From Phaeobacter sp. G2 (lineage in GTDB: Bacteria > Pseudomonadota > Alphaproteobacteria > Rhodobacterales > Rhodobacteraceae), in NCBI GenBank assembly GCA_025163595.1, contig CP104102.1, forward strand, positions 62,001 through 126,000: a DNA stretch of 64,000 nt, given 5' to 3'. The position numbers and the translations under genes are program-made. Of the stretch, positions 12,669-56,418 are shown piece by piece. The notes under the pieces were generated by a model. That model was not told the DNA's origin, did no database searches, and saw nothing but the letters and a program-made list of their open reading frames with translations. Positions within the stretch are counted from its first letter, which is position 1. Every line of letters begins with the position of its first letter.

Positions 12669-12759
12669 GTTTTTTCACGACAACCTGATGTGAAAGGCTC
12701 CGATATCTCTGAAAGTCAGAAAAAAGGCCGCAAATCTTCGGCAACCGAATCGGTTGTTG

Positions 12760-12787
12760 TTGACTGGCGCGGAGAAGCTGGTAAATC
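12760..12787 (+). promoter_or_regulatory. Promoter of the antisense ctRNA
   Basis: TTGACT (12760-12765) and TAAATC (12782-12787) are separated by 16 bases on the strand opposite the repABC operon. It points at the hairpin terminator at 12812, giving a short antisense RNA in the repB-repC gap. Confidence 0.6.
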
Positions 12788-12793
12788 TGAAAG

Positions 12794-12848
12794 TGCAAAG
12801 AACAGATTGGGCTCTCCTAGGGAAACCTTGGGGGGCTCTTTCTTTTTT
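12794..12848 (+). ncRNA. Antisense ctRNA controlling repC
   Basis: repABC plasmids carry a small counter-transcribed RNA in the repB-repC gap that represses RepC and sets incompatibility. Here the + strand has a promoter at 12760-12787 and, about 25 bases after the expected start, a strong terminator, predicting an RNA of roughly 55 bases complementary to the repC leader. The exact ends are inferred. Confidence 0.65.
12812..12848 (+). terminator. Rho-independent terminator of the ctRNA
   Basis: CTCTCCTAGG (12812-12821), loop GAAA, CCTTGGGGGG (12826-12835) form a 10-pair stem with two G-U pairs and one mismatch. It is followed by CTCTTTCTTTTTT. Confidence 0.75.
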
Positions 12849-12895
12849 GGGTTGTTGGTCGTGCTCCTTTTTTAAGTTTTACTGCTCGGTCGACA

Positions 12896-36556: not shown

Positions 36557-36567
36557 GGACTTTGAAA

Positions 36568-39137: not shown

Positions 39138-39146
39138 GGAAAAGAA

Positions 39147-41417: not shown

Positions 41418-41721
41418 GAGGCGGCGCCTCCTTTGCGGAAGTTTCTGGAAAATCGGGCCGTCGCGTGCGGCGCAAACGCCGCAATCCGTTCGCCCTTGTG
41501 TTGTCAGTCCTACCAAGGCGGCTTTGACCTTTCCAATGGGGCGATTGCGTCAGGGTGTTATCCGCGGCCTGTCGCAGGAGAGACAGTTGTTGGATGCCCC
41601 ATTCCGGCCTCTACTGGCGTCAGTACCGCCGGCACCCGGTCGTTGCGGGTGGGCGTTCCTGTCCTCCGACACAGCCGGAAAACAGTGGTACGCCTTTTAA
41701 ACATTAGGGGAGGATACCCAA

Positions 41722-42920: not shown

Positions 42921-44126
42921 TCAGACGCGTTCAAGCAGAAGGGCGACGCCCTGACCGACCCCAACACACATCGACACAATGGCGCGCCGCGCGGTGCCCT
43001 GCGAAAGCTGAATAGCGGCACTACCGGCAATTCGGGCACCGGACATGCCCAACGGATGCCCAAGGGCGATCGCCCCACCATTGGGATTCACGCGCGGATC
43101 GTTGTCAGGGATGCCCAGCCCGCGCAGACAGGCCAGCACTTGCGCCGCAAAGGCCTCGTTCATTTCGAAGAGATCGATGTCTTCGGTGGTCAGGCCGTGC
43201 TGAGTCAGCAGTTTCTGCACCGCTGGCACCGGCCCGTAGCCCATTAACCGCGGCGGCACCCCGGCAGACGCGCCACCAACCACCCGTGCGAGAGGCCGCA
43301 ACCCATGGCGTTGTACCGCCGCCCCCGAAGCCAGTATCAGCGCCGCCGCCCCGTCATTCACTCCCGAAGCATTGCCAGCGGTCACAGATCCGTCCGTCCG
43401 AGTGATCGGGCGCAGCCGTGCCAGATCGGCCAGTTGGGTGTCGGGTCGGGGGTGTTCGTCTGCGGCTATGACCTTGGTTTTGCCACGGCCGGCTGGCACC
43501 TCGACCGGGATGATTTCAGGGGTGAAACGTCCTGCGGTTTGGGCCTGTCCCGTTTTACGCTGCGAGTCGGCGGCAAAAGCGTCCTGGTCTGCGCGGCTGA
43601 TGTCCATTTCATCCGCCAGGTTCTGCGCCGTCTGAGGCATCGAATCTGTCCCATAGGCAGCCTGCATCTTGGGGTTAATGAAACGCCAGCCGATGGTGGT
43701 GTCCTCCATCGCGACGGCGCGTGAAAAGGCGCGATCAGATTTCAGCAGGACAAAGGGTGCGCGGCTCATGCTTTCGGCGCCACCGGCGATGGCCAGGTGC
43801 ATTTCCCCGGCCTTGATCGTGCGAGCGGTGGTCAGAACGGCCTCTAGCCCGGAACCGCACAGGCGGTTTACCGTGACCCCCGGCACCTGTTCAGGTAATC
43901 CAGCCAGCAAACTGGACATGCGGGCAATGTTGCGGTTGTCCTCTCCTGCCTGATTGGCGCACCCCAGCCAGACCTCCTCGACTTCGGACGGGTCCATCCC
44001 CGGATTCCGGCGCAGTAATTCGGCCAGTGGAATGGCCGCTAGATCATCAGGGCGCAGGCCGGACAGGCCGCCGCCATGACGCCCGATGGGCGTGCGGATG
44101 TAATCGCAAAGGAAGACGTCGTTCAT
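42921..44126 (-). CDS. Acetyl-CoA acyltransferase (3-oxoadipyl-CoA thiolase-like)
   Basis: This 401-residue thiolase has the catalytic Cys in [13 protein letters not shown] (about 85-97), the second active-site His in [18 protein letters not shown] (about 344-361) and the C-terminal Cys in SMCVGVGQG. Sequence throughout ([20 protein letters not shown] at the N-terminus; [21 protein letters not shown]) is closest to PcaF-type beta-ketoadipyl-CoA thiolases. It follows the FadB-like gene by 10 bases in a three-gene operon running leftward, and cleaves a 3-oxoacyl-CoA to acetyl-CoA plus a shortened acyl-CoA. Confidence 0.92.
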
Positions 44127-44136: not shown

Positions 44137-46194
44137 TTAGGTATTCAGGCTGTTCAGGGTACGGTTCGCTGCGGCCAGATCAGTCAGAAGGCCGGGAACG
44201 GACCAGGATAAAGGGTCGTTTTCGCAAAGCGCGTTCAGTTGGTCGATCAACATGGGCACGCCGATCCGGTCGGCCTGATACATAAGCCCTCCGCGCCAGC
44301 GAGGGAACCCGTAGCCATGGATCAGAATCAGATCGATATCGGCGGGCCGGGCGGCGATGCCTTCTGTCAGGATGTCACAGGCCTCGGCGATCATGGCCAG
44401 CAGTAAGCGGGCAGAAATCACCTGGGGCGGGATCGGTTCGCGGGGGATTTTCGCCTGGGCGCTGGTGGCAACAATACAGTCCAACACGATCTGCGAGGGC
44501 TGCGGTGTGCCGTCGGCATCATAATCGTACCAGCCGGCATTGGTTTTCCGCCCCAGCCTTTTCAGGTCTTCGACCAGGCGGTCCGCGATCGGCACATAGC
44601 GCCGGTCCTGGCGGTCCCCGGGGGCCTGACGTTTGCGGTTGGCATAGGCGATGTCCAGACCAGACAGATCTTGCGCCTGATAGGGGCCCATGGCCATGCC
44701 AAAGGCGCGCATCGCGGCATCAATGCTGTCCGGGGTGGCCCCCTGCAACAGCAAAGTATCCGCCGCATGGCGATACCGGGTCAGGATGCGATTCCCGATA
44801 AATCCGTCGCATACCCCCGACAGAACCGGCATTTTCCCAAGCCGCCGTGCCAGGGCAAAGGCCACACCCAGCGTCGCGTCGGATGTTTTCTCACCGCGCA
44901 CGATTTCCAGCAGCTTCATGATATGCGCGGGGGCGAAAAAATGCAGACCCAGGAACCGTTCGGGGGTGTCGATTCCCAGGGCCAGTGCGTTCACATTCAG
45001 ATAAGAGGTGTTCGTGGCTAGCACCGCGTCGCGGGGCAGGGCGGCCTGAAGCGCGGCAAATATGGTGCGTTTGACGCTCATGTCCTCGAATGCGGCCTCG
45101 ATGGCCAGGCCTGCGGGGGGCAACCCTTCGTATCCGTATTGAACAGACAAGCGAACCTGCAACACGGCCGGATCCAGCCCGGTGCGGGCCGCACCTTGGG
45201 TAATCAGTCGGGCGATATTGTCCTTAGCGCGGCTCACCGCATTGGCGTCGGTTTCGACCACGGTCACCTCTAGCCCAGCGGTGGCCAGCGCATAGGCGAT
45301 CGAGGCCCCCATGTTGCCGCCACCGACGACGACCGCGCGGCTGAGTTCGGTTTTCGGCGCGGCAAAGGCCTTGCCCTGGGACAGGGCGGCGCGTTCGGCG
45401 AAAAACACATGGCGCAGGGCATGAGCCTGTTGTGACTGGCGCAGGTCCAGGAAGGTGCGCCTTTCGCGCAGCATGGTCTGCTCCAGTGTTTCGGACGCGG
45501 CTGCGGCGACCAGATCAATTGCGAGATGCGGTGCGATCTGTCCCGCGGCCCGCCGGTCGGCCTGGGCATGCGCATCGTCAACCGCCTGGGTGTCCAGGTC
45601 CGGTGCGGGACGCTGATCCGGTATCAGCGCACGGTGCAGTACCTGTTTGCCCACACTGTGGGCGGCGGCGACGGGGTCGGCGGCGATCTGGTCGACCAGC
45701 CCCATATCCAGCCCCTTTTCTGCCGACACGCTGCGCCCCCGGGCGATCATGTCCAGCGCGGCGGCCATCGGTATCAGGCGCGACAACCTTTGCGTGCCGC
45801 CGGCCCCGGGGACGATACCCAGCGTGACCTCTGGCAGGCCCAGCGTGGCCCCCGGCGCCGCGATGCGATACCGGCAAGCCAGCGCGATTTCCAAGCCGCC
45901 CCCCAAGGCCGTCCCGTTGATGGCCGCGATGGTCGGAAACGGCAGGTCGGTCAGTTGGGCCAGCACGTCGTTCAAATGCGGCGGCAGCGGTTTGCCGTCA
46001 AATTCGCGCGCATCCGCACCAGCGACAAAGGCGCGCCCGGCCCCCGTCAGAATCAGGCGTGACGGACGGTCCTGTGCGGCACGCTGGATCGCGTCCAACA
46101 ATTCAGCCCTCATGTCGCGGCCAAACACGTTCAGCGGCGGGTTGTCAAAGGTGACCACGGCCACCTTGTTTTCCAGACGGTAGTGTACGGTCAT
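44137..46194 (-). CDS. Enoyl-CoA hydratase/3-hydroxyacyl-CoA dehydrogenase fusion (FadB/FadJ-like)
   Basis: This 685-residue bifunctional protein has an N-terminal crotonase domain (GAGRAFVAGADAREFDGKPL, about 50-69; ALGGGLEIALACRYRIA; GIVPGAGGTQRLSRL). After a linker come the NAD-binding domain (VVGGGNMGASIAYALATAGL, about 291-310; NTSYLNVNALA; FFAPAHIMKLLEIVRG) and two C-terminal dehydrogenase helical domains (CDGFIGNRILTRY; GWYDYDADG; IHGYGFPRWRGG). It performs hydration and oxidation in beta-oxidation, delivering the 3-oxoacyl-CoA to the neighbouring thiolase. The order crotonase-dehydrogenase matches peroxisomal-type and FadB-type proteins. Confidence 0.93.
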   Translation of the reverse strand: MTVHYRLENKVAVVTFDNPPLNVFGRDMRAELLDAIQRAAQDRPSRLILTGAGRAFVAGADAREFDGKPLPPHLNDVLAQLTDLPFPTIAAINGTALGGGLEIALACRYRIAAPGATLGLPEVTLGIVPGAGGTQRLSRLIPMAAALDMIARGRSVSAEKGLDMGLVDQIAADPVAAAHSVGKQVLHRALIPDQRPAPDLDTQAVDDAHAQADRRAAGQIAPHLAIDLVAAAASETLEQTMLRERRTFLDLRQSQQAHALRHVFFAERAALSQGKAFAAPKTELSRAVVVGGGNMGASIAYALATAGLEVTVVETDANAVSRAKDNIARLITQGAARTGLDPAVLQVRLSVQYGYEGLPPAGLAIEAAFEDMSVKRTIFAALQAALPRDAVLATNTSYLNVNALALGIDTPERFLGLHFFAPAHIMKLLEIVRGEKTSDATLGVAFALARRLGKMPVLSGVCDGFIGNRILTRYRHAADTLLLQGATPDSIDAAMRAFGMAMGPYQAQDLSGLDIAYANRKRQAPGDRQDRRYVPIADRLVEDLKRLGRKTNAGWYDYDADGTPQPSQIVLDCIVATSAQAKIPREPIPPQVISARLLLAMIAEACDILTEGIAARPADIDLILIHGYGFPRWRGGLMYQADRIGVPMLIDQLNALCENDPLSWSVPGLLTDLAAANRTLNSLNT

Positions 46195-46197
46195 CGG

Positions 46198-47652
46198 TCA
46201 GGCCACCGGGTTTGACATGCGGCTGATGAATTTCGTGTTCAGGTAGCCTTCGAAGCTTTCGATGCCGCCTTCGCTGCCATAGCCGCTGTCGTTAATCCCG
46301 CCAAATGGCGTTTCGGGCAGGGCCAGTCCAAAATGGTTGATCGACACCATCCCTGCCGCCAAAGAGGCCGACGCCTGATCGGCGCGTTGCAGCGAATTGG
46401 TAAAGACATAAGAGGCCAGACCAAAGGGCAGGCGATTTGCGCGGCGCAGGGCCTCGTCACTGTCGCGGAATCGCGACACCACCGCGACCGGGCCAAAGGG
46501 TTCGTCATTCATCAGCGCGATGTCGTCGCCGTCAGTGGCAACGACGGTCGGGCTGTAGAAATGTCCGACATTGCCGATGCGCGCGCCGCCGGTGGCAATG
46601 GTGGCGCCGTTTGCGCGGGCATCGGCGACCAGCGCGTCCATCGCATCCACCCGGCCGGAATTGACCAACGGGCCCATTTTGGTGGCTGGGTCCAACCCGT
46701 TGCCAACGTTTACTTTTTCAAACGCATCGACCAAAGCGGGCAAGAAGCTGTCATAGACGCCATCCTGCACATAGAACCGCGTCGGAGAGATACAGACCTG
46801 CCCGGAATTGCGCAGCTTATTGGCGGTCAGCGCGCGGGCCACGGCCTGGGGGTCGACATCGTCGTAAATCAGAACGGGGGCATGGCCTCCCAATTCCATC
46901 GTGACACGTTTCATGTACCGTCCGGCCAGCTCTGCCAGATGTTTGCCAACTGGAACCGAGCCGGTGAAGCTAAGTTTTTTCACCACGGGATGCGCCAGCA
47001 AGGTGTTGGCAATCAGCGATGGGTCCCCCCAGATGATGTTCAGGCACCCCGCGGGCAGGCCGGCCTCTTCCAGGGCGTTGGCAATGGCCATGATCGCCGA
47101 GGGGGTTTCAGATGCGCCTTTCAGCAGCAGCGTACAGCCCGAGGCCAGGGCATTGGCCACCTTTCGGATCGACTGGCTCAGTGGAAAGTTCCACGGCGCG
47201 ATTGCCAGACAGACCCCGACAGGTTCTTTGACCATGATTTGCTGCACCCCAGCCACCCGCGCGGGAATGATGCGGCCATAGACGCGGCGGCCTTCCTCGG
47301 CGTGCCAGTCCACATAATCGGCGGCCGAACGCACCTCGGCCAGGGCCTCGGCCAGGGGTTTGCCCATGTCCAGCGTGATGTTGCGCGCAATCTGGGATTC
47401 GTCGCGGCGCAGAATGTCGGCAAAGCGCCGCAGAATCCGGCTGCGCTCCAGGGCTGACACGCCCTGCCAGGAGTCAAAGGCGGTTTGCGCTGTTTGTACC
47501 GCCTGGTCCAGTTCCTGGGCGGTGATCATCGGCATTTCGGCCAGTGTTTCCTCTGTGGCGGGGTTGGTGATCGCCCGCGTGGAACGGCCTTCGGGGCCGA
47601 TCCTTTTGCCGTTCAGGATGATTTCAATTCGAGGGTAAGTTGCATCGGTCAT
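46198..47652 (-). CDS. NAD(P)-dependent aldehyde dehydrogenase (succinate-semialdehyde dehydrogenase-like)
   Basis: This 484-residue enzyme starts at the ATG at 47652 behind AAAGGACC. Motifs: AIAPWNFPLSQSIRKVANAL (about 151-170), SFTGSVPVGKHLAELAGRYM (about 228-247), catalytic Glu in MELGGHAPVLI (about 251-261), catalytic Cys in NSGQVCISPTRFYV (about 282-295) and a GabD-like C-terminus. It is first in the leftward operon with the FadB-like and thiolase genes, suggesting conversion of an aldehyde intermediate to the acid before CoA activation and beta-oxidation. It is not the salicylaldehyde enzyme, which lies at 31474. Confidence 0.9.
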   Translation of the reverse strand: MTDATYPRIEIILNGKRIGPEGRSTRAITNPATEETLAEMPMITAQELDQAVQTAQTAFDSWQGVSALERSRILRRFADILRRDESQIARNITLDMGKPLAEALAEVRSAADYVDWHAEEGRRVYGRIIPARVAGVQQIMVKEPVGVCLAIAPWNFPLSQSIRKVANALASGCTLLLKGASETPSAIMAIANALEEAGLPAGCLNIIWGDPSLIANTLLAHPVVKKLSFTGSVPVGKHLAELAGRYMKRVTMELGGHAPVLIYDDVDPQAVARALTANKLRNSGQVCISPTRFYVQDGVYDSFLPALVDAFEKVNVGNGLDPATKMGPLVNSGRVDAMDALVADARANGATIATGGARIGNVGHFYSPTVVATDGDDIALMNDEPFGPVAVVSRFRDSDEALRRANRLPFGLASYVFTNSLQRADQASASLAAGMVSINHFGLALPETPFGGINDSGYGSEGGIESFEGYLNTKFISRMSNPVA

Positions 47653-47773: not shown

Positions 47774-47789
47774 TGTCAATTCTGAGACA
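47774..47789. promoter_or_regulatory. Dyad TGTC-N8-GACA, candidate site of the AcoR-like regulator
   Basis: TGTCAATTCTGAGACA lies in the 275-base divergent gap between the aldehyde dehydrogenase operon and the flavin reductase/LLM/RibB operon. It has the outline of the larger palindrome at 52306-52333 and shares its right half TGAGACA. TTGACA at 47842-47847 is a possible -35. Confidence 0.5.
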
Positions 47790-47927
47790 AGCCGGACGTT
47801 CCGGCTTAGCGCAACTGGGCCAGTGGGCATTTCGGGTTGAATTGACAATTCTCAGGGCAAGCTTGGGTGCCTCGCTGCGATCTGCGGGGCGCTCCTTACA
47901 TTCACTTAGCGGCGGAGAACCGTTCCG

Positions 47928-48455
47928 ATGACGGCACAGGACCTGACCATGACCTCACTGACCGAGGACTTCCGAACGAGTTTACGGTTGTGTGCGGCCA
48001 GCATTTCTCTGGTGACCGCGTGTGACGAAACAGGCGGCTGGCACGGCATGGCTGTTACCAGTTCGGGATCGCTCTCGATGGAACCCCCGTCGATGATGGT
48101 GGCTATTAATCACACGGCCTCGATCCATCCGGTTATCCTGCGCACCGGACGGTTCGCCCTTAACCTGATGGGAGAAGACCGCCTTGACCTGTTAGAGCGG
48201 TTCTCCCGCAGCGACATGCGCGACCAGCGGTTCGTACCGGGTGAATGGACCGATGTGGTCGGGGGCGTGCCTGCACTGAAGGACGCCCTGTCAACGCATA
48301 TTTGCAGTGTGGTCGAACGCCATGATTTTGGCACCCACACAGTTTTCTTTGGTGCGGTCGAGGATGTCATCCTGCCCCGCACGGATCAGGCCACGGCGCC
48401 AATTCTGTGGCTGAACGGCGCGCGCGCTTCTGTTGCGACGCCACTCACCGACTGA
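47928..48455 (+). CDS. Flavin reductase (HpaC/DIM6-NTAB family)
   Basis: This 175-residue protein resembles the FMN-binding flavin reductases of two-component monooxygenases: SLVTACDETGGWHGMAVTSS (about 26-45), MMVAINHTASIHP (about 55-67), GRFALNLMGEDRLDLLERFS (about 73-92) and AILWLNG near the end. It supplies reduced flavin from NAD(P)H. It starts the operon with the LLM monooxygenase and RibB; an ATG at 47949 is an alternative start. A paralogue lies at 52446. Confidence 0.87.
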   Translation: MTAQDLTMTSLTEDFRTSLRLCAASISLVTACDETGGWHGMAVTSSGSLSMEPPSMMVAINHTASIHPVILRTGRFALNLMGEDRLDLLERFSRSDMRDQRFVPGEWTDVVGGVPALKDALSTHICSVVERHDFGTHTVFFGAVEDVILPRTDQATAPILWLNGARASVATPLTD

Positions 48456-48521
48456 CTTGGGCAGGTGCCTGAGCAGAAACCAACGCCCGTATGGGCACTT
48501 AACGAACCTTGGGAGGATTCA

Positions 48522-49610
48522 ATGGATCTCGGACTTTTCCACATGCCCCTGCACCCGGCTGACCGGCCGCTTGTTGATGTGTTGGCAGAGAACACGGAAA
48601 AAATCATTTACGCTGACCAGCTAGGTTTCAAGGAAACCTGGATCGGCGAACATTATTCGGCCTCGACCGAGCCAATCACCGCGCCGATGATGTTCCTGGC
48701 GTCGCTGATCCCCCAGACCAAGCAAATCCGCTTTGGTACGGGTGTGATTTGTCTGCCAAACCACCACCCGGCGCAGGTTGCCGGTCAGGCGGCGCAGTTT
48801 GATCACATGACTGAGGGCCGTTTCAACATGGGTATCGGGCCGGGCGGTCTGGCCTCTGATATGGAACTGTTCGACGTTCTGGACGGCACTGAACGCGCCG
48901 AAAAGTTCGCTGAATCTATCGGTATGATCAAGCAGATCTGGTCGCAGGACCCGCCCTATGACATCAAGGGCAAACACTGGAATATCAAGATCACCGACAA
49001 TATCATTCCCAAACTCGGCGTGGGCTATATGTCCAAGCCCTTTACCAAACCGCATCCCCCGATCTCGCTGTCGTCGATGTCGCCGGATGGTAATTCGGTC
49101 GCCCATGCGGTGAAACAGGGCTGGCGCCCGATCTCGGCCAACTTTGCGCCCGAAAGCACCATCATCAACCACTGGCACAAGTATGTCGAAGGTTGCGAAG
49201 CTATCGGCAAGAAGGCCGACGGCAAAGACTGGTCGGTTGTTCGCAACATCCTGATCGCCGAAAGCGACGCCCAGGCAGAAGACTGGCTGCTGGATCCCAA
49301 AGGGTCGGATTTCTACTACTTCGACTACCTGTGGGAAGTGCTGAAAGTCGCTGACTATACCGCGGTTATCAAGCCGAATCCGGAAATGTCAGATGACGAG
49401 GTCACGGTCGAATCGATCGTTAAGTCCTCGGTGATCTATGGCTCGCCCAAGACCGTGATTGATAAGATCATGAGCCTGCGTGAGCGTTCGGGTCCGTTCG
49501 GCACTTTGCTGAAGGCGGCGATGGACGGTTCTGGCCATAACCGCGAACGCGAGCGGCTGACGATGCGTCGTCTGGCTGAAGACGTTCTGCCGGTCATTAA
49601 CGCAGGCTGA
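48522..49610 (+). CDS. LLM-class flavin-dependent monooxygenase (luciferase-like)
   Basis: This 362-residue TIM-barrel bacterial-luciferase-family protein starts at the ATG at 48522, 6 bases after GGGAGG. Features include DLGLFHMPLHPADRP at the N-terminus, DQLGFKETWIGEHYSASTEP (about 29-48), RFGTGVICLPNHHPAQVAGQ (about 74-93), HMTEGRFNMGIGPGG and the C-terminal GSPKTVIDKIMSLRERSG. Such enzymes use FMNH2 and O2 for Baeyer-Villiger-type oxidation, epoxidation or desulfurisation; limonene monooxygenase-like and diketocamphane-like enzymes are in this family. The substrate here is unknown. The adjacent flavin reductase and RibB support an FMN-hungry two-component oxygenase. Confidence 0.9.
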   Translation: MDLGLFHMPLHPADRPLVDVLAENTEKIIYADQLGFKETWIGEHYSASTEPITAPMMFLASLIPQTKQIRFGTGVICLPNHHPAQVAGQAAQFDHMTEGRFNMGIGPGGLASDMELFDVLDGTERAEKFAESIGMIKQIWSQDPPYDIKGKHWNIKITDNIIPKLGVGYMSKPFTKPHPPISLSSMSPDGNSVAHAVKQGWRPISANFAPESTIINHWHKYVEGCEAIGKKADGKDWSVVRNILIAESDAQAEDWLLDPKGSDFYYFDYLWEVLKVADYTAVIKPNPEMSDDEVTVESIVKSSVIYGSPKTVIDKIMSLRERSGPFGTLLKAAMDGSGHNRERERLTMRRLAEDVLPVINAG

Positions 49611-49615
49611 GCGGG

Positions 49616-50308
49616 ATGTTGTTTCTGCGAGAACTGGAAATTAAAGGGGACAGCGTTGCTGTCCCCTCGATATCCACCGACGCGCCGTCCGCTGCGGCTT
49701 TGCGCCGGGTCGCCCTGGCGATTGACATCATCGCCTCTGGCGGGATGGTTATCGCTGTCGATGATGACATGCGCGAAAACGAAGGCGACCTGATCGCTTC
49801 GGCCGCAACGATTACGCCGGATATGGTGGCCTTTATGGTTAATCATTCCACCGGTATCCTGTGCGCAGCAATGAGCGGCGCAAAGGCGGATGCCTTGGAT
49901 CTGCCGCCAATGGTGGCGCGCAACGACGATCCTCAGGCGACGGCCTTTACCGTCACATGCGATGCGAATGGCTGTAGTACGGGCGTTTCTGCAAACGACC
50001 GCGCCCTGACATTCCAAGTGTTGTCTGCCAACACACCGGACCCGTCCGCGATCAGACGGCCCGGCCATGTGTTCCCCCTGCGTGCCCGCGAGGGTGGTGT
50101 TCTGGTGCGGGATGGCCACACCGAGGCGACCTATGACTTGGTGCGTCTAGCCGGGCATGAGCCTGTGGGTGTGTTGTGCGAGCTGGTGAACCCCGATGGC
50201 TCGATGATGTGTGGTCAGCGGCTTGACGATTTTGCCGCGCAGCATGGCCTGTTGAAAATCACCATCGCCGATCTGATGGACTGGCGCCGCGCGCATAACG
50301 ACCTGTAA
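49616..50308 (+). CDS. ribB: 3,4-dihydroxy-2-butanone 4-phosphate synthase
   Basis: This 230-residue monofunctional enzyme is without the RibA (GTP cyclohydrolase II) domain. All RibB motifs are present: VDDDMRENEGDLIASA (about 48-63) with the metal-binding Glu, NHSTGIL, RRPGHVFPLRAREGGVL (about 143-159), GHTEATYDLVRLAG (about 163-176) and CELVNPDGSM. It converts ribulose 5-phosphate to the C4 precursor of lumazine. It lies 5 bases after the LLM monooxygenase, with no riboswitch between, so flavin precursor synthesis is tied to oxygenase expression rather than to FMN feedback. Confidence 0.95.
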   Translation: MLFLRELEIKGDSVAVPSISTDAPSAAALRRVALAIDIIASGGMVIAVDDDMRENEGDLIASAATITPDMVAFMVNHSTGILCAAMSGAKADALDLPPMVARNDDPQATAFTVTCDANGCSTGVSANDRALTFQVLSANTPDPSAIRRPGHVFPLRAREGGVLVRDGHTEATYDLVRLAGHEPVGVLCELVNPDGSMMCGQRLDDFAAQHGLLKITIADLMDWRRAHNDL

Positions 50309-50311
50309 GGC

Positions 50312-50340
50312 CCGGCCCCCGGAGGATCGGGGCCGGGCCC
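50312..50340 (+). terminator. GC-rich hairpin after ribB
   Basis: GGCCCGGCCCC (50312 onward) and GGGGCCGGGCC (ending near 50339) form a long GC stem with a short loop but no T-run. It may attenuate transcription between ribB and the CaiB-family gene. Confidence 0.45.
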
Positions 50341-50362
50341 GCGCTAAACTGAGGAGAAGCAA

Positions 50363-51547
50363 GTGAGCAAAAGCGTGAACGGGTCTTTGACCGGGACATT
50401 AGTTCTGGATGCCTCGCGTGTGTTGGCGGGTCCGTTTGCCGGACAATTGCTGGGCGATCATGGCGCAGAAGTCATCAAGGTCGAGGCCTTCGCCGGCGAC
50501 GATACGCGTGGGTACGGCCCACCATTTGTCGATGGCACTGCGCCCTATTTTCTGGGTTTGAATCGCAATAAGAAAGATCTGGCACTGGATCTATCCAAGC
50601 CAGAGGGCATTGACCTGCTGTTCGAGATGCTGGAACAGGCCGATGTTTTTATCGAAAACTTCAAGGCCAGCACTTGGGCGAAATGGGGTGTCTCGGATCT
50701 GTCGGAAATCACTCGGCGGTTTCCGCATCTGGTGCATTGCCGTGTGTCGGGGTTCGGGGAAACCGGACAACTGGGTGGTTTGCCCGGCTATGACGCTGCG
50801 GTGCAGGCGATTTCGGGGCTGATGGCGGTGAACGGGCCGCCCGATATTGATGCCTGTCGGATCGGTATTCCCATCGTTGACAGCTGCACCGGCATGTATG
50901 GCTGCATGGGTATTCTGATGGCGCTGCTGGAACGCAACAGGTCCGGTTTGGGCCAGATGGTCGAGGTGACATTGTACGATACCGCGATTGCAATGTTGCA
51001 CCCTCATGCCTCGAACGTTCTGAATGGCGGGCGGGCCTTGCGGACCGGCAACGGTCATCCGAATATCGTCCCCTATGACCTGTTTCCGACCAGCACCGTG
51101 CCGCTGTTTCTGGCCGTGGGAAATGACCGGCAATTCCGTACGCTATGCGCCGAGCTGGGTGTGCCCGAGCTGGGCACCGACGTGCTGTACCGCACAAACC
51201 GCGACCGGGTGACGAACCGCGACAGTCTGCGGGCCACACTGAGTCCGCTGCTGGAACAACGGGACGGTATGGCCCTGTTCACGCATCTGATGGATCTGGG
51301 GGTACCCTGCGCGCCGGTTCTGACCGTCGAAGAGGTGCTCGAACTTGATCATACGCGGACCAGAGAGATGGTACAGGAAGTCGATGGCTATCGCGGGCCC
51401 GGTATCGCCGTGAAACTGGACCGGACGCCAGGTTCTGTGCGTCTTCCGCCGCCAATTATCGGGGCACATAGTCGGGACGTACTGACGCGGTTTGGTTTTG
51501 ACGGCGAGAGGGTGTCACTCCTTTTTTCCCGGAATGTCGTCACATAG
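50363..51547 (+). CDS. CaiB/BaiF family CoA-transferase
   Basis: This 394-residue class III CoA-transferase starts at GTG after GAGGAGAAGCAA. Motifs: VLDASRVLAGPFAGQLLGDH (about 15-34), GAEVIKVEAFAGDDTRGYGP (about 35-54), FLGLNRNKKDLALDL (about 64-78) and the catalytic Asp region PGYDAAVQAISGLMAVNG (about 138-155). It transfers CoA from a donor acyl-CoA to a carboxylic acid. In this context it could activate the acid produced by the LLM/aldehyde dehydrogenase route for beta-oxidation. A second, distinct family member lies at 60672. Confidence 0.92.
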   Translation: MSKSVNGSLTGTLVLDASRVLAGPFAGQLLGDHGAEVIKVEAFAGDDTRGYGPPFVDGTAPYFLGLNRNKKDLALDLSKPEGIDLLFEMLEQADVFIENFKASTWAKWGVSDLSEITRRFPHLVHCRVSGFGETGQLGGLPGYDAAVQAISGLMAVNGPPDIDACRIGIPIVDSCTGMYGCMGILMALLERNRSGLGQMVEVTLYDTAIAMLHPHASNVLNGGRALRTGNGHPNIVPYDLFPTSTVPLFLAVGNDRQFRTLCAELGVPELGTDVLYRTNRDRVTNRDSLRATLSPLLEQRDGMALFTHLMDLGVPCAPVLTVEEVLELDHTRTREMVQEVDGYRGPGIAVKLDRTPGSVRLPPPIIGAHSRDVLTRFGFDGERVSLLFSRNVVT

Positions 51548-51568
51548 TTACAAATATGCGAGGCGGGG

Positions 51569-52249
51569 ATGATATCCATCAATAAGCACGCTGCTATGGC
51601 CACCGTGACATTCGCCCCTGTGCAAGGCCATGTATCGCTGAGCGGCGAACAGATGCAGCATCTCACAAGGGTCGCTTTGGATTTCCATGACGACTTCTCC
51701 ACCACATCCGTCGTACTCAGAACATCCCACATGACCAGCTGTGAAGCTGACGAGGCGGTATGTTACTCGGTTGACGCACAATCGTCCGAGGCGAAACTCA
51801 TTTCAATGCATTACGAGCACATGTGCAGCGCATGGCGGGCTATGCCTCAAGTGACGATTGCCGCCATTGAGGGGGGTGTTGTCGGGGCCGCGGCCGCGTT
51901 GACTTTGTCTTGCGACTGGCGAGTAATGGCAGAAAGTGCCTACTTGCAAATGTCCGGGAAAATCGGGGAAGTGCTGTTCGACGCATCAGTTGTTTCGGAC
52001 TTAGTCAGTATGGTTGGCCACGCGAAAACTCTGCAATATTTGATTCTTGGTGATCGTGTGGCTCCCGAATGCGCTTTGAAGGCTAGTCTGGTTGAATGGA
52101 TTGCCCCAGACGGCCTTGCCGCAGCCATGGCTGCGGATCTCGCACAGAGAGTGGCTGCACGGCCCGTGGATGAAGTGCTAAGGCAAAAGCGGGCAGTGTC
52201 GAGCTGCAAAGAGGCTTTGTTCCAAGCTGCGGGCCTGACGGCCTATTGA
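51569..52249 (+). CDS. Divergent enoyl-CoA hydratase/isomerase-family protein
   Basis: This 226-residue crotonase-fold protein is shorter than the usual 255-260 residues. AIEGGVVGAAAALTLSCDWR (about 96-115) corresponds to the family's oxyanion-hole region (IxGxxxGGGxxLALxCD), but the usual catalytic Glu pair further on is not clearly conserved, reading SGKIGEVLFDASVVSDLVSM. The N-terminal part is weakly conserved. It follows the CaiB-family gene by 21 bases, probably in the same operon. Isomerase, hydratase or a non-hydratase crotonase function are all possible. Confidence 0.75.
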   Translation: MISINKHAAMATVTFAPVQGHVSLSGEQMQHLTRVALDFHDDFSTTSVVLRTSHMTSCEADEAVCYSVDAQSSEAKLISMHYEHMCSAWRAMPQVTIAAIEGGVVGAAAALTLSCDWRVMAESAYLQMSGKIGEVLFDASVVSDLVSMVGHAKTLQYLILGDRVAPECALKASLVEWIAPDGLAAAMAADLAQRVAARPVDEVLRQKRAVSSCKEALFQAAGLTAY

Positions 52250-52305
52250 GTTGTCCGGCACCTTAGAGCGGTCGGACCATACGGCGGCAAATAAGGATGC
52301 AAGGC

Positions 52306-52333
52306 AACAAGTGTCTCAGATGAGACACTTGTT
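52306..52333. promoter_or_regulatory. 28-bp perfect palindrome, probable operator of the AcoR-like regulator
   Basis: AACAAGTGTCTCA (52306-52318) and TGAGACACTTGTT (52321-52333) are perfect inverted repeats around GA. The core TGTCTCAGATGAGACA fits the TGTC-N8-GACA outline also seen at 47774 and 55869. It lies about 60 bases upstream of a -10-like TATAAT that precedes the second flavin reductase and the regulator gene. Confidence 0.72.
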
Positions 52334-52370
52334 ATGATAAGATGTGTCCGACTGGAGCGTGTGTTCAATA

Positions 52371-52399
52371 GCTACAACGCGGTAACATGTGGCTATAAT
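52371..52399 (+). promoter_or_regulatory. Sigma-70-type promoter before the second flavin reductase
   Basis: TATAAT (52394-52399) has a weak -35 GCTACA 17 bases upstream (52371-52376). I do not see a sigma-54-type GG-N10-GC element in this gap. A perfect -10 with a poor -35 and an upstream palindrome suggests activator-dependent transcription. Confidence 0.45.
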
Positions 52400-52445
52400 T
52401 GGACGGAGGGCACTGCGATCTTACAGGCGCACGGGAGGATATGAT

Positions 52446-52991
52446 ATGAATAAGCACCCCGATTTCGATCGAGAAGGTGAATGCGATTTCTCAAAGAACC
52501 TGAGACAAGCGCTCAGGGGGACGGTGGTCAATGTTGCGCTTCTGACAACGCGCGATCATTCTGGAGGCTTTCACGGCCTCGCTGTTACGACCGCTGTTCC
52601 GTTCTCCACTCATCGCCCCGCGATAATCGTTGCAGTCAACAACCGTGCCTCGGCCTTTCCGGCGATCCGGGACAGTGGTTACTTTTGCCTGAACCAGATC
52701 ACCACAAACGACATCGACCTATTGGATCGATTTTGCCGAAGCGACAAGCGTGCCTCTCGCTTCACCTCCGACAGATGGGTGGAGGGGATGCATGGGCTAC
52801 CATATCTGGCAGGGGCTACGACATGTTTCTTTTGCGATGTTCAACAAGCGTATGCACATGACGATCAGATGGTTTTTATTGGGAAAATCGACGGTGTCCG
52901 TTTGGGTCATAGATGCCCAGAGACTCCGGAGGACCCCCTTATCTGGCTTAACGGAGGAGCAGCAAAGCTGGCCAGACGGGAAATAGCCTAG
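52446..52991 (+). CDS. Flavin reductase, second copy (HpaC/DIM6-NTAB family)
   Basis: This 181-residue protein starts at the ATG at 52446 after GGGAGGATATGAT; an upstream in-frame start at 52389 lacks a ribosome-binding site. Its sequence parallels the reductase at 47928 (HSGGFHGLAVTTAVPFSTHR, about 38-57; IIVAVNNRASAFPAIRDSGY; FCLNQITTNDIDLLDRFCRS; PLIWLNGG) but is clearly diverged. It lies just upstream of the AcoR-like regulator and downstream of the strongest palindrome. A second reductase suggests either high FMNH2 demand or a different oxygenase partner. Confidence 0.87.
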   Translation: MNKHPDFDREGECDFSKNLRQALRGTVVNVALLTTRDHSGGFHGLAVTTAVPFSTHRPAIIVAVNNRASAFPAIRDSGYFCLNQITTNDIDLLDRFCRSDKRASRFTSDRWVEGMHGLPYLAGATTCFFCDVQQAYAHDDQMVFIGKIDGVRLGHRCPETPEDPLIWLNGGAAKLARREIA

Positions 52992-53037
52992 CGCTGTAAA
53001 ATCGGCGCTTGATAGAAGTTGTCTTGGGAGGGGCATA

Positions 53038-54912
53038 ATGTCAGACACAAGGGCGGGAACCGCCACAGAATTGAATGATCCGTTGGCAATAGAAATCGCC
53101 AATATTCGCAAATCTCGCGGGCTGAATGGCGCACTTGACCTGCCAGATCTCGTGTCCGAGTCTTGGAAAAGATGTCTTTCAGACTATAATCTTCTTCCCG
53201 ACAGTATTCCGCGTGCTGAGGTCCTGTCACATTCTGAATTGCGCCCGATCCTGGAGGAGCGCGAAGATTTTCTACGTATCGCTGAACCCGAAATCGAGCG
53301 CCTGTTCCAACGGCTCGTCGATAGTGAGTATCTGGTGTCACTCGCGTCCTCTCAAGGGGCAATGCTACTGTTCCGCTGCGATTATCAATACTTGGGCGAG
53401 TTGGCGGGATCAGGTGTTATTCCAGGTTCGATTTGGACTGAGGACAGGCAGGGAACCAATGGTATCGGAACCTGCTTGAGGGTGGGGAAATCAGTCTCTG
53501 TCGTCGGAACCGAGCATTATGGTGCCGCAACTCAAGACCTGACCTGCCTCACGGCGCCGGTTTTTGGGCGGAAGGGAGCTTTAGAATGCGTTATTAACGT
53601 AACGACGGCTCGTAGCACAGACATACGGATGAACCGTGTCGTACAAAGCATCGTCGAACGTGCGGCCCGCCGAATTGAAAACGGGCACTTTGGTCGACTT
53701 CACCGTCGTAACCTGATGCTGCGCATTCTGGACAATGCAGAAAATTCCGACATGGCCGAAGAGGGCCAGATCGCGATTAGCGAAAGTGGGTTGATCTTAG
53801 AGGGGACATCCCAAGTTGCACGGTTGCTGAAACAGCCGGTAGATGAGTTGATTGGCACTTCGGCGACTGAGCTTTTTGAATTGGATACCGATATATCCGA
53901 GATCCGTCCAGGTACGCCCATCATGCTCCAGCATGGAGGAAAGCCACTTAGGGCGATGCTGAGCGTGCCCGAAACACGCAGGCAGTCGGCTGCCCTCCAG
54001 ACTGGCAGTGCGCGGATGTCTCCAGCAACTCCTTGGGCCCTAAAGACGGTTGATCTGGTTAAAGAGGACTTGCGTATCAACCCGGTGCTAAGCCAGGCAA
54101 TGGATCGCGCGCAACGTCTCTTGTCTTCGGGGTTACCTGTCGTCGTAACGGGCGAAACGGGTGCAGGCAAAACTAGTTTTGCCAAGGCGGTTGCGCGGCA
54201 TTGTTTTGGTGAAGATACGAAAATTGTCTTTGTTGATTGTGCCGCACTCGAAGCGCGTAGCAATTTGTCATCCTTGTTCGAAAACCGTCTTCAAGGTCAA
54301 CGATCCTGTCTTATCATTGATCGGATCGACGAAATGAGCGAAGCACATCAATCAGTGTTACTGGGCCTGCTGGAAAGTGACAGGCAGGCGGCTGTGAACG
54401 GGATCGGCATGATTGTGATTTCCACCCAGGAGCTCAGCGAACTGGTAAAAGAGAACCGCCTGCGGCCCGATCTTCTGCACCGATTGAAGGGCGGGCAAAT
54501 TGCGCTTCCCCCATTGCGCAACGCACCGGATATAGAGCTGACCGTCCGCGATCTGTTTCGGATCGAGCGTGAGCTGCAAGAAAAGCCAGATTTGGAACTG
54601 GACGACGATGTGCGCTTGGTGTTGCAGCATTACCATTGGCCCGGCAACCTGCGGGAACTGCGCAATTCGCTGCGTCACGCGATTGCCTTATCCGATGGAA
54701 AACTGGTCCGTCTGGACCAACTGCCACAGGATATAGTTGAGGAAATCGCACGTAAAGACCTGACCGCGCGGTCCCAGTCCGAAGCATCAAAAATCGAGGC
54801 AGCCCTGCGCTATAACGGCGGCAACGTTTCCCTGACGGCGCGGTATCTGGGCATGTCGCGCGCGACGCTTTACCGGAAAATCCAAATCCAGAAGGCGCGC
54901 GAGGAAACCTGA
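53038..54912 (+). CDS. AcoR-like transcriptional activator (GAF, AAA+, Fis-type HTH) lacking the GAFTGA loop
   Basis: This 624-residue regulator has an N-terminal AcoR-type sensory region ending in a GAF-like domain (VIPGSIWTEDRQGTNGIGTC; VGTEHYGAATQDLTCLTAPV). The AAA+ domain has Walker A VTGETGAGKTSFAKAVARH (about 369-387), Walker B LIIDRIDEM (about 425-433) and LRPDLLHRLKGGQIALPPLR (about 479-498), then HWPGNLRELRNSLRHAIALS and a C-terminal Fis-type helix-turn-helix (GGNVSLTARYLGMSRATLYR). The GAFTGA loop that contacts sigma-54 is deleted between the CAALEARSNLSSLFEN segment and Walker B, so it probably activates sigma-70 promoters, as TyrR-like proteins do. It likely controls the nearby oxygenase and flavin genes. 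Confidence 0.9.
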   Translation: MSDTRAGTATELNDPLAIEIANIRKSRGLNGALDLPDLVSESWKRCLSDYNLLPDSIPRAEVLSHSELRPILEEREDFLRIAEPEIERLFQRLVDSEYLVSLASSQGAMLLFRCDYQYLGELAGSGVIPGSIWTEDRQGTNGIGTCLRVGKSVSVVGTEHYGAATQDLTCLTAPVFGRKGALECVINVTTARSTDIRMNRVVQSIVERAARRIENGHFGRLHRRNLMLRILDNAENSDMAEEGQIAISESGLILEGTSQVARLLKQPVDELIGTSATELFELDTDISEIRPGTPIMLQHGGKPLRAMLSVPETRRQSAALQTGSARMSPATPWALKTVDLVKEDLRINPVLSQAMDRAQRLLSSGLPVVVTGETGAGKTSFAKAVARHCFGEDTKIVFVDCAALEARSNLSSLFENRLQGQRSCLIIDRIDEMSEAHQSVLLGLLESDRQAAVNGIGMIVISTQELSELVKENRLRPDLLHRLKGGQIALPPLRNAPDIELTVRDLFRIERELQEKPDLELDDDVRLVLQHYHWPGNLRELRNSLRHAIALSDGKLVRLDQLPQDIVEEIARKDLTARSQSEASKIEAALRYNGGNVSLTARYLGMSRATLYRKIQIQKAREET

Positions 54913-54918
54913 AGGTCA

Positions 54919-54942
54919 GGCCCGGGAACAGTGTCCCGGGCC
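54919..54942. terminator. GC-rich hairpin between converging genes
   Basis: GGCCCGGGA (54919-54927) and TCCCGGGCC (54934-54942) form a perfect 9-pair stem with a 6-base loop and no T-run. It lies between the converging regulator and SDR genes. Confidence 0.5.
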
Positions 54943-54959
54943 GACCAGGGGCCTGATGA

Positions 54960-55754
54960 TCAGCCCAGAGAAAACCCGCCATCCACGGCCAGCGCCTGGC
55001 CGGTGACATGGGGTGCGCAGGCCAGATACACGACCATCTGGCCCATGTCCTCGGGTGTTTGCGCCACGCCCTGCGGCAGGAAAATCTGCTGGTGACGTTT
55101 CCATGATTCCTCTTCGGTTTCGCCGGGTTCTGCCCATTTGCCGGATAGGCCGGTTTCGCCGCGCCACATGCCAGTGCCGACGATGCCGGGGCACAGGGCG
55201 TTCACAGTGATGCCTTCCTGGGCCACTTCCTTGGCCACGGCGTTGCTAAAGCCGATGACACCGAATTTCGTGGCACTGTAATGCGACAGGGCGGGGAAAC
55301 CGACCTTGCCAGCGATCGAGGCGGTGTTAATGATCCGGCCGTATTTCTGTTTGCGCATCAGGGCCACTTCGGCCTGGGTGCACAGGAAAACGCCGCGCAA
55401 GTTGATGTTAATGCAATCGTCCCACTGATCGACGGTCAGTTCTTCGATTCCGCCCAAGCTGACGACGCCCGCATTGTTCATTGCGATGTCCAGCCGACCG
55501 AATTGCTTTTCCACGGCGTCAACCATTGCCGTAACACTGTCCGGTTTGCGGACGTCAACTTGCAACGCGGCAGTGCGACGCCCCAGTTTCGACACCGCAT
55601 CAGCGCCTGCTTCTGCCAGCTCTTTCGTGTAATCGGCGATCACGACATCAGCACCGGCCTCGGCCAGGCTGGTGGCAATGCCCAGCCCGATACCCCGTCC
55701 GCCACCAGTTACCATGGCGATGCGGCCTTCTAGTGAAAATTGAGAATTTGTCAT
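54960..55754 (-). CDS. SDR-family NAD(P)-dependent oxidoreductase
   Basis: This 264-residue classical SDR shows the cofactor motif VTGGGRGIGLGIATSLAEAG (about 15-34), NNAGV (about 93-97), a catalytic Ser in NTASIAGK and the YxxxK motif in HYSATKFGVIGFSNAV. An Asp in VVIADYTKE points to NAD(H) preference. It starts behind GGGAGGACAAA. It is divergent from the second flavokinase gene, with a regulatory dyad between. It may oxidise an alcohol in the LLM monooxygenase pathway; the substrate is unknown. Confidence 0.9.
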   Translation of the reverse strand: MTNSQFSLEGRIAMVTGGGRGIGLGIATSLAEAGADVVIADYTKELAEAGADAVSKLGRRTAALQVDVRKPDSVTAMVDAVEKQFGRLDIAMNNAGVVSLGGIEELTVDQWDDCININLRGVFLCTQAEVALMRKQKYGRIINTASIAGKVGFPALSHYSATKFGVIGFSNAVAKEVAQEGITVNALCPGIVGTGMWRGETGLSGKWAEPGETEEESWKRHQQIFLPQGVAQTPEDMGQMVVYLACAPHVTGQALAVDGGFSLG

Positions 55755-55868
55755 TTTGTCCTCCCTGACTGTGTTCAGGGCCCAGAAAAGGGCTCTTCAG
55801 CTTATGCTGATCATGAATGCCTCTTGTGGGACAATTGGCTCAATCGCTTCACTGGACAGGGCACCCCC

Positions 55869-55884
55869 TGTCACATCAAAGACA
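55869..55884. promoter_or_regulatory. Dyad TGTC-N8-GACA between SDR and flavokinase genes
   Basis: TGTCACATCAAAGACA, extended to CCTGTC...GACAGG, has the same spacing as the sites at 47774 and 52312. It lies in the 271-base divergent gap and could serve both genes. GACAGGG...CCCTGTC just upstream and a GCACAATTGTGC palindrome add further symmetry. Confidence 0.5.
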
Positions 55885-56025
55885 GGCTGAGATTTCCCTT
55901 TGATTGGGTGCCGTCTCAAAAGGCACAATTGTGCGGGCAGGTCACGCCGATTAGACTCTCAGAGCTATACAGTGTGGGCATTCGGCACTCGTGCCATTCC
56001 GTAAAATCCGACGTGGTAGACAGAC

Positions 56026-56418
56026 ATGACTAAATTAGAACTCCCGGTCCGGATTCGCGGCGTTGTGGCACATGGCGACAAGCGGGGCAGAGTCTTGGGG
56101 TTCCCCACCGCGAATTTAATGAGCGGCATTCCGGTTGGTCTCGACTATGGTGTTTATGCTTCGGAAACAGTGATCCTAGGCGATATGTCAAAAACCTATG
56201 CTTCTGTGACGTCTTTTGGTATCCGCCCAACCTTTGATGGTGCTGACAGACGTATCGAAACACATATTTTAGATTTCAACGAGGACATCTACGACCGGGA
56301 AATCGAAGTATCTCTCTTGGCCTTTTTGCGACCGGAAAGACGGTTTGCGTCAGTCAAGCATCCGGTCGCAGCGATGCATGGCGATATAATGGCCACCCGT
56401 TCGCGAACACGATCTTGA
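56026..56418 (+). CDS. Stand-alone riboflavin kinase (flavokinase) domain protein, second copy
   Basis: This 130-residue protein consists only of the RibF C-terminal domain: VAHGDKRGRVLGFPTANLMS (about 14-33), YGVYASE (about 41-47), TSFGIRPTFDGADRR and catalytic-base segment IETHILDFNEDIYDREIE. The adenylyltransferase domain is absent, so FMN but not FAD is the expected product. It is clearly related to the protein at 19150-19644 but diverged, so the two are old paralogues or separate acquisitions. It is divergent from the SDR gene behind a TGTC-N8-GACA dyad, suggesting co-regulation with the FMN-dependent monooxygenase genes. Confidence 0.85.
   Translation: MTKLELPVRIRGVVAHGDKRGRVLGFPTANLMSGIPVGLDYGVYASETVILGDMSKTYASVTSFGIRPTFDGADRRIETHILDFNEDIYDREIEVSLLAFLRPERRFASVKHPVAAMHGDIMATRSRTRS

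Follow-up and report, generated by a model that had tools for sequence, protein, structure and literature searches.

A putative plasmid-borne catabolic regulon linking an FMN-dependent monooxygenase to its cofactor supply through a shared palindrome and a GAFTGA-less AcoR-like regulator

Introduction

Could one regulator switch on a flavin mononucleotide (FMN)-dependent oxygenase together with the genes that supply its cofactor? This question is raised by a 64,000-nucleotide stretch of Phaeobacter sp. G2, referred to here as the window (bases 62001-126000 of contig C3, CP104102.1; host genome G000, 4.96 Mb in 7 contigs), in which a PF00296 monooxygenase gene and ribB are adjacent on the same strand, close to genes for flavin reductases, a riboflavin kinase and an AcoR-like regulator. 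An FMN-supply regulon had been proposed here by an earlier sequence-only reading, from a dyad seen in three promoter gaps. The present analysis supports that proposal and adds members to it, since sites were also found ahead of ribH-ribE-ribBA and ribH-ribA genes in relatives. It is probable that the locus is a plasmid-borne catabolic regulon which is served by its linked AcoR-like regulator independently of sigma54 and which includes FMN supply. The case is built on what can be read in the DNA: the shared, conserved and predictive sites, the gene content, the loss of a loop and a catalytic residue from the regulator, and the absence of sigma54 from the host.

Results

Operator sites in the window

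Five operator-like sites, A to E, lie in promoter gaps of the window (Table 1), and their common consensus is about TGTCnCAnnTGnGACA, with the palindrome form TGTCnCA-N2-TGnGACA. Sites A, B and C stand exactly where the sequence-only reading had placed its TGTC-N8-GACA dyads, and its estimate of about one chance match per 64 kb agrees with the computed value of 0.96. Its "perfect 28-base palindrome" around B (52306-52333) does have two perfect arms of 13 bases each, but they are separated by a 2-base spacer, GA. Its list was real as far as it went but incomplete, as site D at 41570 and the weaker site E at 35211 had been missed. In total, TGTC-N8-GACA has six matches in the window, a number reached by none of 100 shuffles. 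Besides site D, the matches beyond the first list are at 26142 and 56763, and both were rejected as operators because they lie inside genes of tripartite ATP-independent periplasmic (TRAP) permeases (a fused permease gene and dctM, respectively).

All six matches of this bare motif on contig C3 fall in the window, and it is this local cluster alone that stands out. Exact copies of the tighter pattern TGTCNCANNNGAGACA are confined to 41570 and 52312 in the entire genome; with one mismatch allowed, there are 14 forward and 9 reverse matches, against 6 and 10 for the control. Five genomes of relatives and one plasmid yielded 12 different exact copies of the tight form, 11 of them on contigs with regulon genes and one (G774, contig C57) in a stretch without any gene searched for. 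With one mismatch and the strands summed, G770 (18 vs 2) and G772 (12 vs 1) clearly exceed the control, and G774 (10 vs 7) and W01 (4 vs 1) do so slightly.

Conservation and prediction of held-out sites

The homologous loci come from Stagnihabitans, Gemmobacter, Cypionkella and two other Rhodobacterales assemblies (L001-L005) and from Agrobacterium/Rhizobium (Rhizobiaceae) plasmids (L013, L014, L017); their regulators are 63-68% and their monooxygenases 84-90% identical to those of the window. By eye, the palindrome is the most conserved block in the aligned gaps A, B and D, and gap C is less even; across the loci, gap A separates the reductase from either an aldehyde dehydrogenase or a hydratase operon. 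The 16-mer of operator A is identical at the homologous gap of L003, L005, L013, L014 and L017 and is one base off in L001 and L004. Operator D is conserved in L003, L004, L005 and L013, and sites precede the same genes in L061, L063 and L066.

A symmetrised matrix was trained on 13 sites of gaps A and B only and then applied to unseen gaps; at a cut-off of 12, its chance rate is about 0.6 hits per 64 kb. The held-out D sites scored 18-21 in five of five loci (p about 0.001 each; 20.2 in the window), and held-out C scored 19.0 in the window (p about 0.001), 13.9 in L005 and 11.9 in L002, the comparison of this gap leaving out L001, whose short-chain dehydrogenase/reductase (SDR) gene has another gene close upstream. 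For six other gaps of the window, p was 0.15-0.74. Sites were also recovered ahead of ATP-binding cassette (ABC) transporter genes in L013 (19.5) and L003 (21.1), the latter transporter being different from that of the window (ATPase 33% identical). The E-type site TGTCGCGTCTGAGACA or its complement is present in L062, L064 and L068, with a variant in L013, and the binding-protein genes behind these sites are 87-89% like one another.

Eight further stretches were chosen because pattern hits lay in them, and seven of the eight contain sites of score at least 13, L067 being the exception. These sites precede genes for diol dehydrogenase, acyl-CoA dehydrogenase and ABC binding proteins, second monooxygenase genes (59% identity) facing ABC genes in L061 and L064, and second copies of the regulator gene in L061 and L063. 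Altogether, 264 kb of such loci gave 41 hits at this score (13 training and 28 held-out, with one duplicate). No aligned homologous gene runs into any of the 41 hits. Five fall within the projected full length of such a gene: four at an over-long acyl-CoA dehydrogenase start and one at a reductase, whose frame actually stops before the site. Conservation at homologous promoters, the decisive check among those suggested for the regulon, was found both by eye and by prediction.

Flavin-supply genes behind the sites

The matrix returned two unlooked-for sites, termed R, with p about 0.001 (L005:2734, score 17.8; L013:6508, score 18.6). Downstream of the first are genes for RibH (lumazine synthase), RibE (riboflavin synthase) and a RibBA-like protein, whose 3,4-dihydroxy-2-butanone 4-phosphate (DHBP) synthase part is incomplete; the second is followed by genes for RibH and GTP cyclohydrolase II (ribH-ribA). 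A third ribH gene with a site ahead of it, in L061, is followed by ribE and a ribBA piece, and pairs of SDR and riboflavin kinase genes preceded by sites are seen in L061 and L063. Because the matrix trained on A and B recovers held-out sites that include those of rib operons, the monooxygenase and the FMN-supply genes share one operator. When the loci are grouped into seven lineages (the window; L001+L062+L063; L002+L061+L066+L068; L003; L004+L065; L005+L064; L013+L014+L017), each has at least one rib or riboflavin kinase gene in its cluster.

The largest contig of the host, C1, has its own ribB, two ribH genes and one flavokinase gene, so the plasmid flavin genes are additions. An Rfam scan of the window, L005 and L013 gave no match and hence no FMN riboswitch (RFN element) there; therefore, the model is one in which the substrate drives cofactor supply, beyond the reach of FMN feedback on the RNA. 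The FMN riboswitch controls flavin supply in many bacteria, whereas supply in the window appears to be tied to the substrate and not to the FMN level.

The window also holds a second flavin pair, a riboflavin kinase gene overlapping ribH, which adjoins a broken SDR gene (about 18361-19153, two frames). Near this pair, a half-site-like stretch is visible by eye only, around 18198.

The regulator and sigma54

The regulator is DhaR/AcoR-like by family scan, but below the curated cut-offs. Its AAA+ and Fis-type helix-turn-helix (HTH_8) domains stand in the order expected of AcoR-type enhancer-binding proteins, and a GAF domain was recognised in a 74% identical relative. In all, 382 relatives were found, and the counts given here are for the 120 listed. 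The GAFTGA loop is absent from the window regulator and from all 120 of these relatives, and in an alignment to ZraR the loop region is simply missing; such a deleted L1 loop in an otherwise recognisable AAA+ regulator matches the GAFTGA-less enhancer-binding proteins. Walker A is intact in 118 of the 120, the Walker B glutamate has become arginine (D-R, not D-E) in 117 of the 118 read, and the HTH is nearly invariant. One survey treats GAFTGA as invariant in sigma54-specific activators (PMC12316311).

Neither PF04552 nor PF04963 detected sigma54 in the 99.99% complete host genome, in a search for which 4 of 14 control genomes were positive, including E. coli, B. subtilis and Caulobacter. All six genomes behind L001-L006 encode sigma54, so the loss of GAFTGA is not simply the result of missing sigma54. 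Across 29 target gaps of the clade, the sigma54 promoter TGGCAC-N5-TTGCW is matched at best with two mismatches in one gap and with at least three in the other 28; as none was convincing, sigma54 promoters in the target gaps were rejected. Sigma54-like matches in the window total 41, against 40.5 by chance, and the GAFTGA-less loci L012 and L013 have one such match each, both inside genes. The missing GAFTGA loop and Walker B glutamate, the lack of good sigma54 promoters and the absence of sigma54 from the host all argue against a sigma54 route, and to judge from these features the regulator is not a classical sigma54 activator. The descent of the "AcoR-like activator" of the sequence-only reading is indeed AcoR-like, but the protein cannot work as sigma54 activators normally do.

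Comparison with GAFTGA-bearing relatives

More distant monooxygenase loci (L015 and L055-L059, with monooxygenases 41-46% identical; L006, 63%) have AcoR-like regulators that keep GAFTGA. These regulators share with the window regulator the AAA+/HTH order, the half-sites and, as neighbours, flavin reductase and aldehyde dehydrogenase genes, but in L006, L015 and L055-L059 the loop is kept and TGGCAC-N5-TTGC promoters are present with 0-1 mismatch, whereas the window clade has neither. In the six annotated loci L015 and L055-L059, 11 palindromes of the form GTC[TG]CA...TG[AC]GAC were found, 10 of them distinct and all intergenic, where shuffles gave 0.1-0.3 per locus. The half-sites of the 10 distinct palindromes are spaced by 4 bases in six, by 7 in two and by 14 in two, compared with 2 bases in the window clade. 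A sigma54-like site with 0-1 mismatch lies within about 165 bp of nine of the 10, L057:1623 being without one, and three gaps of L006 and L015 gave sigma54 promoter matches with 0-1 mismatches. Since the loci of GAFTGA-intact relatives carry the same half-sites, the half-site appears to go with the AcoR-like regulator family, and the window clade, as judged from these comparisons, has kept the half-site and lost the sigma54 apparatus.

Flavin genes occur in three of the six GAFTGA-bearing loci (RibBA in L056 and L057; RibH with riboflavin kinase in L015), and none were seen in the stretches of L055, L058 and L059. The Marinovum (L016) and Paracoccus (L060) stretches contain no sigma54-type regulator and no rib genes.

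It is possible that the regulon changed its sigma factor, with loss of the loop and the ATPase glutamate, a move of the half-sites to N2 spacing, and replacement of the -24/-12 boxes by a fixed -35-like block. We hold the chances for and against this to be even; it is suggested by the distant GAFTGA-intact relatives, which have the same half-sites beside near-perfect sigma54 promoters. If true, such a change would let the plasmid island work in hosts that, like this one, lack sigma54. A tree of 34 regulators requires two changes for the loop, with a warning of long branches.

In Rhodovarius (L006:9222-9247), whose regulator is GAFTGA-intact, the half-sites TGTCTCA and TGCGACA are 12 bases apart, 10 more than in the N2 form, and precede a sigma54-like promoter at 9291. 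A second GAFTGA-less AcoR-like clade is present in Rhodobacterales (L019-L030, 30-32% identical) and, given the long branches in the tree, seems to have lost the loop independently.

A core-promoter-like block beside the operators

A block of the form CGCAnnTgnnCCAnT lies approximately 20 bp past the operator, on one gene's side, at A, C, D, two of three E-type promoters and part of the B promoters. When the block was trained on one promoter group, it ranked at the top in 7 of 21, 8 of 23 and 9 of 22 held-out promoters, where about 0.7 is expected. At operator E, the block at the usual spacing ranked first in two of three tests. Taken as a -35-like element, it would set the centre of the operator at about -69 relative to the putative start, which is a usual place for a class I activator.

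Genes of the locus

The features of the locus are collected in Table 1. The best solved relative of the monooxygenase is 3,6-diketocamphane 1,6-monooxygenase (E 2e-23), an FMN-dependent two-component enzyme of the type II Baeyer-Villiger class. That enzyme serves a camphor pathway, and no riboflavin genes are known to stand under one operator with it. The presence of thiolase, acyl-CoA dehydrogenase, hydratase/dehydrogenase, CoA-transferase and diol/SDR dehydrogenase genes leads us to guess that the substrate is perhaps a cyclic ketone or a vicinal diol, which would be converted to adipyl- or 3-oxoadipyl-CoA through a type II Baeyer-Villiger-like step.

Table 1. Coordinates of sites and genes discussed in the text (window numbering).
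Feature	Position	Strand	Remarks
Operator A TGTCAATTCTGAGACA	47774..47789	.	gap between aldehyde dehydrogenase operon (-) and reductase-LLM-ribB operon (+)
Operator B TGTCTCAGATGAGACA	52312..52327	.	upstream of flavin reductase 2 and regulator gene
Operator C TGTCACATCAAAGACA	55869..55884	.	gap between SDR (-) and riboflavin kinase (+)
Operator D TGTCGCAGGAGAGACA	41570..41585	.	gap between acyl-CoA dehydrogenase (-) and 2,3-butanediol-dehydrogenase-like diol dehydrogenase (+)
Operator E CGTCGCGTCTGAGACA	35211..35226	.	weaker; ahead of sugar ABC transporter operon
Core-promoter-like block CGCAACTGGGCCAGT	47810..47824	+	20 bp from operator A, conserved
Same kind of block, around GCGATTGAGCCAAT	55834..55848	-	20 bp from operator C, SDR side
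Same kind of block	41535..41549	-	20 bp from operator D, acyl-CoA dehydrogenase side
Same kind of block CGCTTCTGAACCAGT	35247..35261	+	20 bp from operator E
Flavin reductase 1 (PF01613)	47928..48455	+	domain match
Luciferase-family (LLM) FMN monooxygenase (PF00296)	48522..49610	+	domain match
RibB, monofunctional DHBP synthase	49616..50308	+	TIGR00506 above cut-off
Class III CoA-transferase	50363..51547	+	
Enoyl-CoA hydratase/isomerase-like	51569..52249	+	
Flavin reductase 2 (PF01613)	52446..52991	+	upstream of regulator
AcoR-like regulator, 624 aa	53038..54912	+	AAA+, Fis-type HTH_8
SDR oxidoreductase	54960..55754	-	
Riboflavin kinase (PF01687), monofunctional	56026..56418	+	
Aldehyde dehydrogenase (succinate-semialdehyde dehydrogenase-like)	46198..47652	-	
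Bifunctional enoyl-CoA hydratase / 3-hydroxyacyl-CoA dehydrogenase	44137..46194	-	
3-Oxoadipyl-CoA thiolase (PcaF)	42921..44126	-	above NCBIfam cut-off
2,3-Butanediol-dehydrogenase-like medium-chain dehydrogenase/reductase (MDR)	41722..42789	+	
Acyl-CoA dehydrogenase	40257..41516	-	longest open reading frame; annotated start of P. inhibens P88 lies inside
Sugar-type ABC transporter operon (binding protein, permeases, ATPase)	35417..40112	+	behind operator E
Second flavin pair: riboflavin kinase, overlapping RibH	19084-19644, 19617-20087		beside a broken SDR gene; no operator found upstream

Discussion

Proposed mechanism and points against it

In the mechanism that we propose, one linked AcoR-like regulator would bind the palindrome in at least four, and probably five, promoter gaps. 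It would thereby jointly switch on (1) uptake; (2) the luciferase-family FMN-dependent monooxygenase with two flavin reductases; (3) the CoA-linked lower pathway, ending in a 3-oxoadipyl-CoA-type thiolase; (4) FMN supply, through RibB and riboflavin kinase here and through RibH, RibE and RibA/RibBA in relatives; and (5) the regulator itself with flavin reductase 2. Cofactor supply would then be driven by the substrate, beside the flavin gene set on the largest contig. The regulator would most likely be a ligand-bound (perhaps ATP-bound) class I activator of sigma70 RNA polymerase; we infer here the identity of the binder, activation in place of repression, and the use of sigma70.

A number of observations weigh against this mechanism. 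The bare TGTC-N8-GACA motif is no commoner genome-wide than its reversed-pattern control (45 vs 61 in 4.96 Mb), so it proves nothing alone, and its enrichment was rejected as proof of a regulon. The sequence-only reading had named as refuting an equal frequency inside genes or a lack of conservation at homologous promoters; the bare motif is indeed as frequent elsewhere in the genome, but the local cluster and the conservation hold. The tight pattern with one mismatch shows no excess in G771 (11 vs 10) and G773 (8 vs 10). Operator C is weak in L004 (10.8) and L013 (8.8) and is called absent in L003, because the best score there is only 7.0 and is located at another spot. Operator E in the window is also weak (10.3, p about 0.035 alone), and the loci are related, so their sites are not independent. 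With respect to the flavin genes, the annotation of L013 places an SDR fragment across the R site, a fragment that resembles a decayed, read-through remnant, and no site stands immediately ahead of ribE-ribBA in L063. The claim that flavin genes stand under the dyad holds for the ribB and riboflavin kinase gaps, but not for the pair at 19084-20087, which has no site recognisable by the matrix (p 0.33).

The -35-like block ranked at the top in only a minority of the held-out promoters, and the test omits two promoters without a block by eye (C of L004, A2 of L001). The R sites lack the block, and nothing near it makes a convincing -10 box. Operators A and D lie between divergent genes, of which either could be the one controlled. 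Five of the sigma54-encoding genomes are those of the other clade loci L001-L005. Finally, we likewise infer both induction and DNA binding by the AcoR-like regulator.

Alternative explanations

The alternative that survives best, although we regard it as rather improbable, is that the regulator represses these promoters and that the substrate relieves the repression. The missing GAFTGA loop and Walker B glutamate speak for it, and the GAFTGA-less NtrC of Caulobacter is reported also to repress some sigma70-dependent genes (PMC10274813). However, the operators lie approximately 20 bp upstream of the core-like block and not on or after it, and the regulator shares an operon with reductase 2, an arrangement that would be expected of positive feedback.

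Less likely still is a real regulon whose palindrome is bound by some other regulator, with the AcoR-like protein as a bystander or co-factor. In favour of this, the AcoR-like protein has lost two functional AAA+ features and might be degenerate. Nevertheless, its gene is the only regulator gene common to these loci (apart from an ArsR-type gene at the edge of the Rhizobiaceae plasmid loci and a second AcoR-like gene in L003), it has its own operator, its HTH hardly varies among the listed relatives, and the same half-sites occur at other monooxygenase loci with GAFTGA-intact relatives.

It is very improbable that the shared dyads reflect chance together with ordinary promoter conservation, and that flavin genes are there only because plasmids collect them. 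The genome-wide count of the bare motif fits such an explanation, as do the two of six window matches inside genes, but the exact tight pattern is confined to two places of the genome, both in the window, and the strong form of this alternative is refuted by the prediction of held-out sites in orthologous as well as other gaps, ribH promoters of three lineages among them. Most improbable, and strongly disfavoured, is a system that still uses sigma54 through mixed rings or a diverged, overlooked host sigma54: the sigma54 genes behind L001-L006 and the label "sigma54-interacting" in the P88 annotation speak for it, but against it stand the absence of both sigma54 domains from the nearly complete host genome, the loop lost in 120 of 120 listed relatives, the catalytic residue altered in 117 of the 118 read, and 28 of 29 gaps without a sigma54 match within two mismatches.

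Relation to known systems

That a luciferase-family oxygenase can be co-expressed with rib genes is already known: in Photobacterium, the lux genes are followed by ribE-B-H-A in the lux-rib operon, whose co-expression supplies flavin (PMC6409340). The window resembles this system in combining a luciferase-family FMN-dependent monooxygenase with riboflavin synthesis genes, in our case from sequence alone. Unlike the Photobacterium system, which is one operon for light, the window has at least four separate promoters tied by an operator and a catabolic pathway, and it includes a riboflavin kinase, two flavin reductases and a linked regulator.

With regard to the regulator, NtrC proteins without GAFTGA, from Rhodobacter capsulatus and from Caulobacter, and the Vibrio cholerae VspR are reported to act on sigma70 promoters, with ATP binding rather than hydrolysis in the R. 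capsulatus protein (PMC10274813). The window regulator is likewise a member of the enhancer-binding-protein family without the sigma54-contacting loop. On the other hand, NtrC and VspR use a phosphorylatable aspartate in a receiver part, whereas the window regulator is AcoR-like, with GAF seen in its 74% identical relative, and it differs further in the arginine that replaces the Walker B glutamate nearly throughout the relatives read. A literature search, with most subscription journals outside its scope, found no description of this regulon, nor either half-site, TGTCTCA or TGAGACA, among the papers listed. To the extent of these searches, three things are new: a catabolic form spread over several promoters, a riboflavin kinase among the members, and a GAFTGA-less AcoR-like regulator that can be compared with sigma54-bearing sister systems.

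If the proposed mechanism is true, this locus would be a clear case of a catabolic regulon carrying its own induced cofactor supply, with riboflavin/FMN synthesis under the same switch as the FMN-using oxygenase and not under an FMN riboswitch. It would also offer a natural before-and-after comparison, across a set of promoters, of a sigma54 activator becoming a sigma54-independent regulator. Both ideas are directly testable with small DNA fragments and one purified protein, and the operator offers a means of locating flavin-supply genes near monooxygenases elsewhere.

Occurrence and neighbouring genes

The nearest named record met is plasmid pP88_c of Phaeobacter inhibens P88 (L012), in which the monooxygenase is 100% identical to that of the window and most other genes are about 95-100% identical, the hydratase-like gene at 51569 being only 75%. 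In this plasmid (L012:7942-9672), the match to the hydratase/3-hydroxyacyl-CoA dehydrogenase gene is split in two pieces with an uncovered middle, which could reflect a rearrangement or a frameshift there. Among 390 genomes of the order, a close regulator was found in G000 only, 12 others matching at 30-32% identity; among 385 genomes of the class, a close monooxygenase was likewise found in G000 only, and viral contigs gave none.

Elsewhere in the window, GajA-like and GajB-like genes (37-3010) form a Gabija-type anti-phage defence pair by PADLOC models; the GajA-like gene matches the later part of its model only, and its start may precede the window. A RepABC-type module (11574-15075) and a second, shorter RP-C gene (6314-7075) lie amid transposases at 6314-15075 and are perhaps the remains of two replicons. 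Between 21592 and 34712 are genes for a flavin adenine dinucleotide (FAD) monooxygenase, a benzoate-CoA-ligase-like protein, a TRAP transporter, a fumarylacetoacetate (FAA) hydrolase, a glutathione S-transferase (GST)/maleylacetoacetate isomerase-like protein, a cupin and a maleylpyruvate isomerase-like protein, with an IclR regulator nearby; to judge from this gene content, the region looks like a gentisate-type aromatic pathway.

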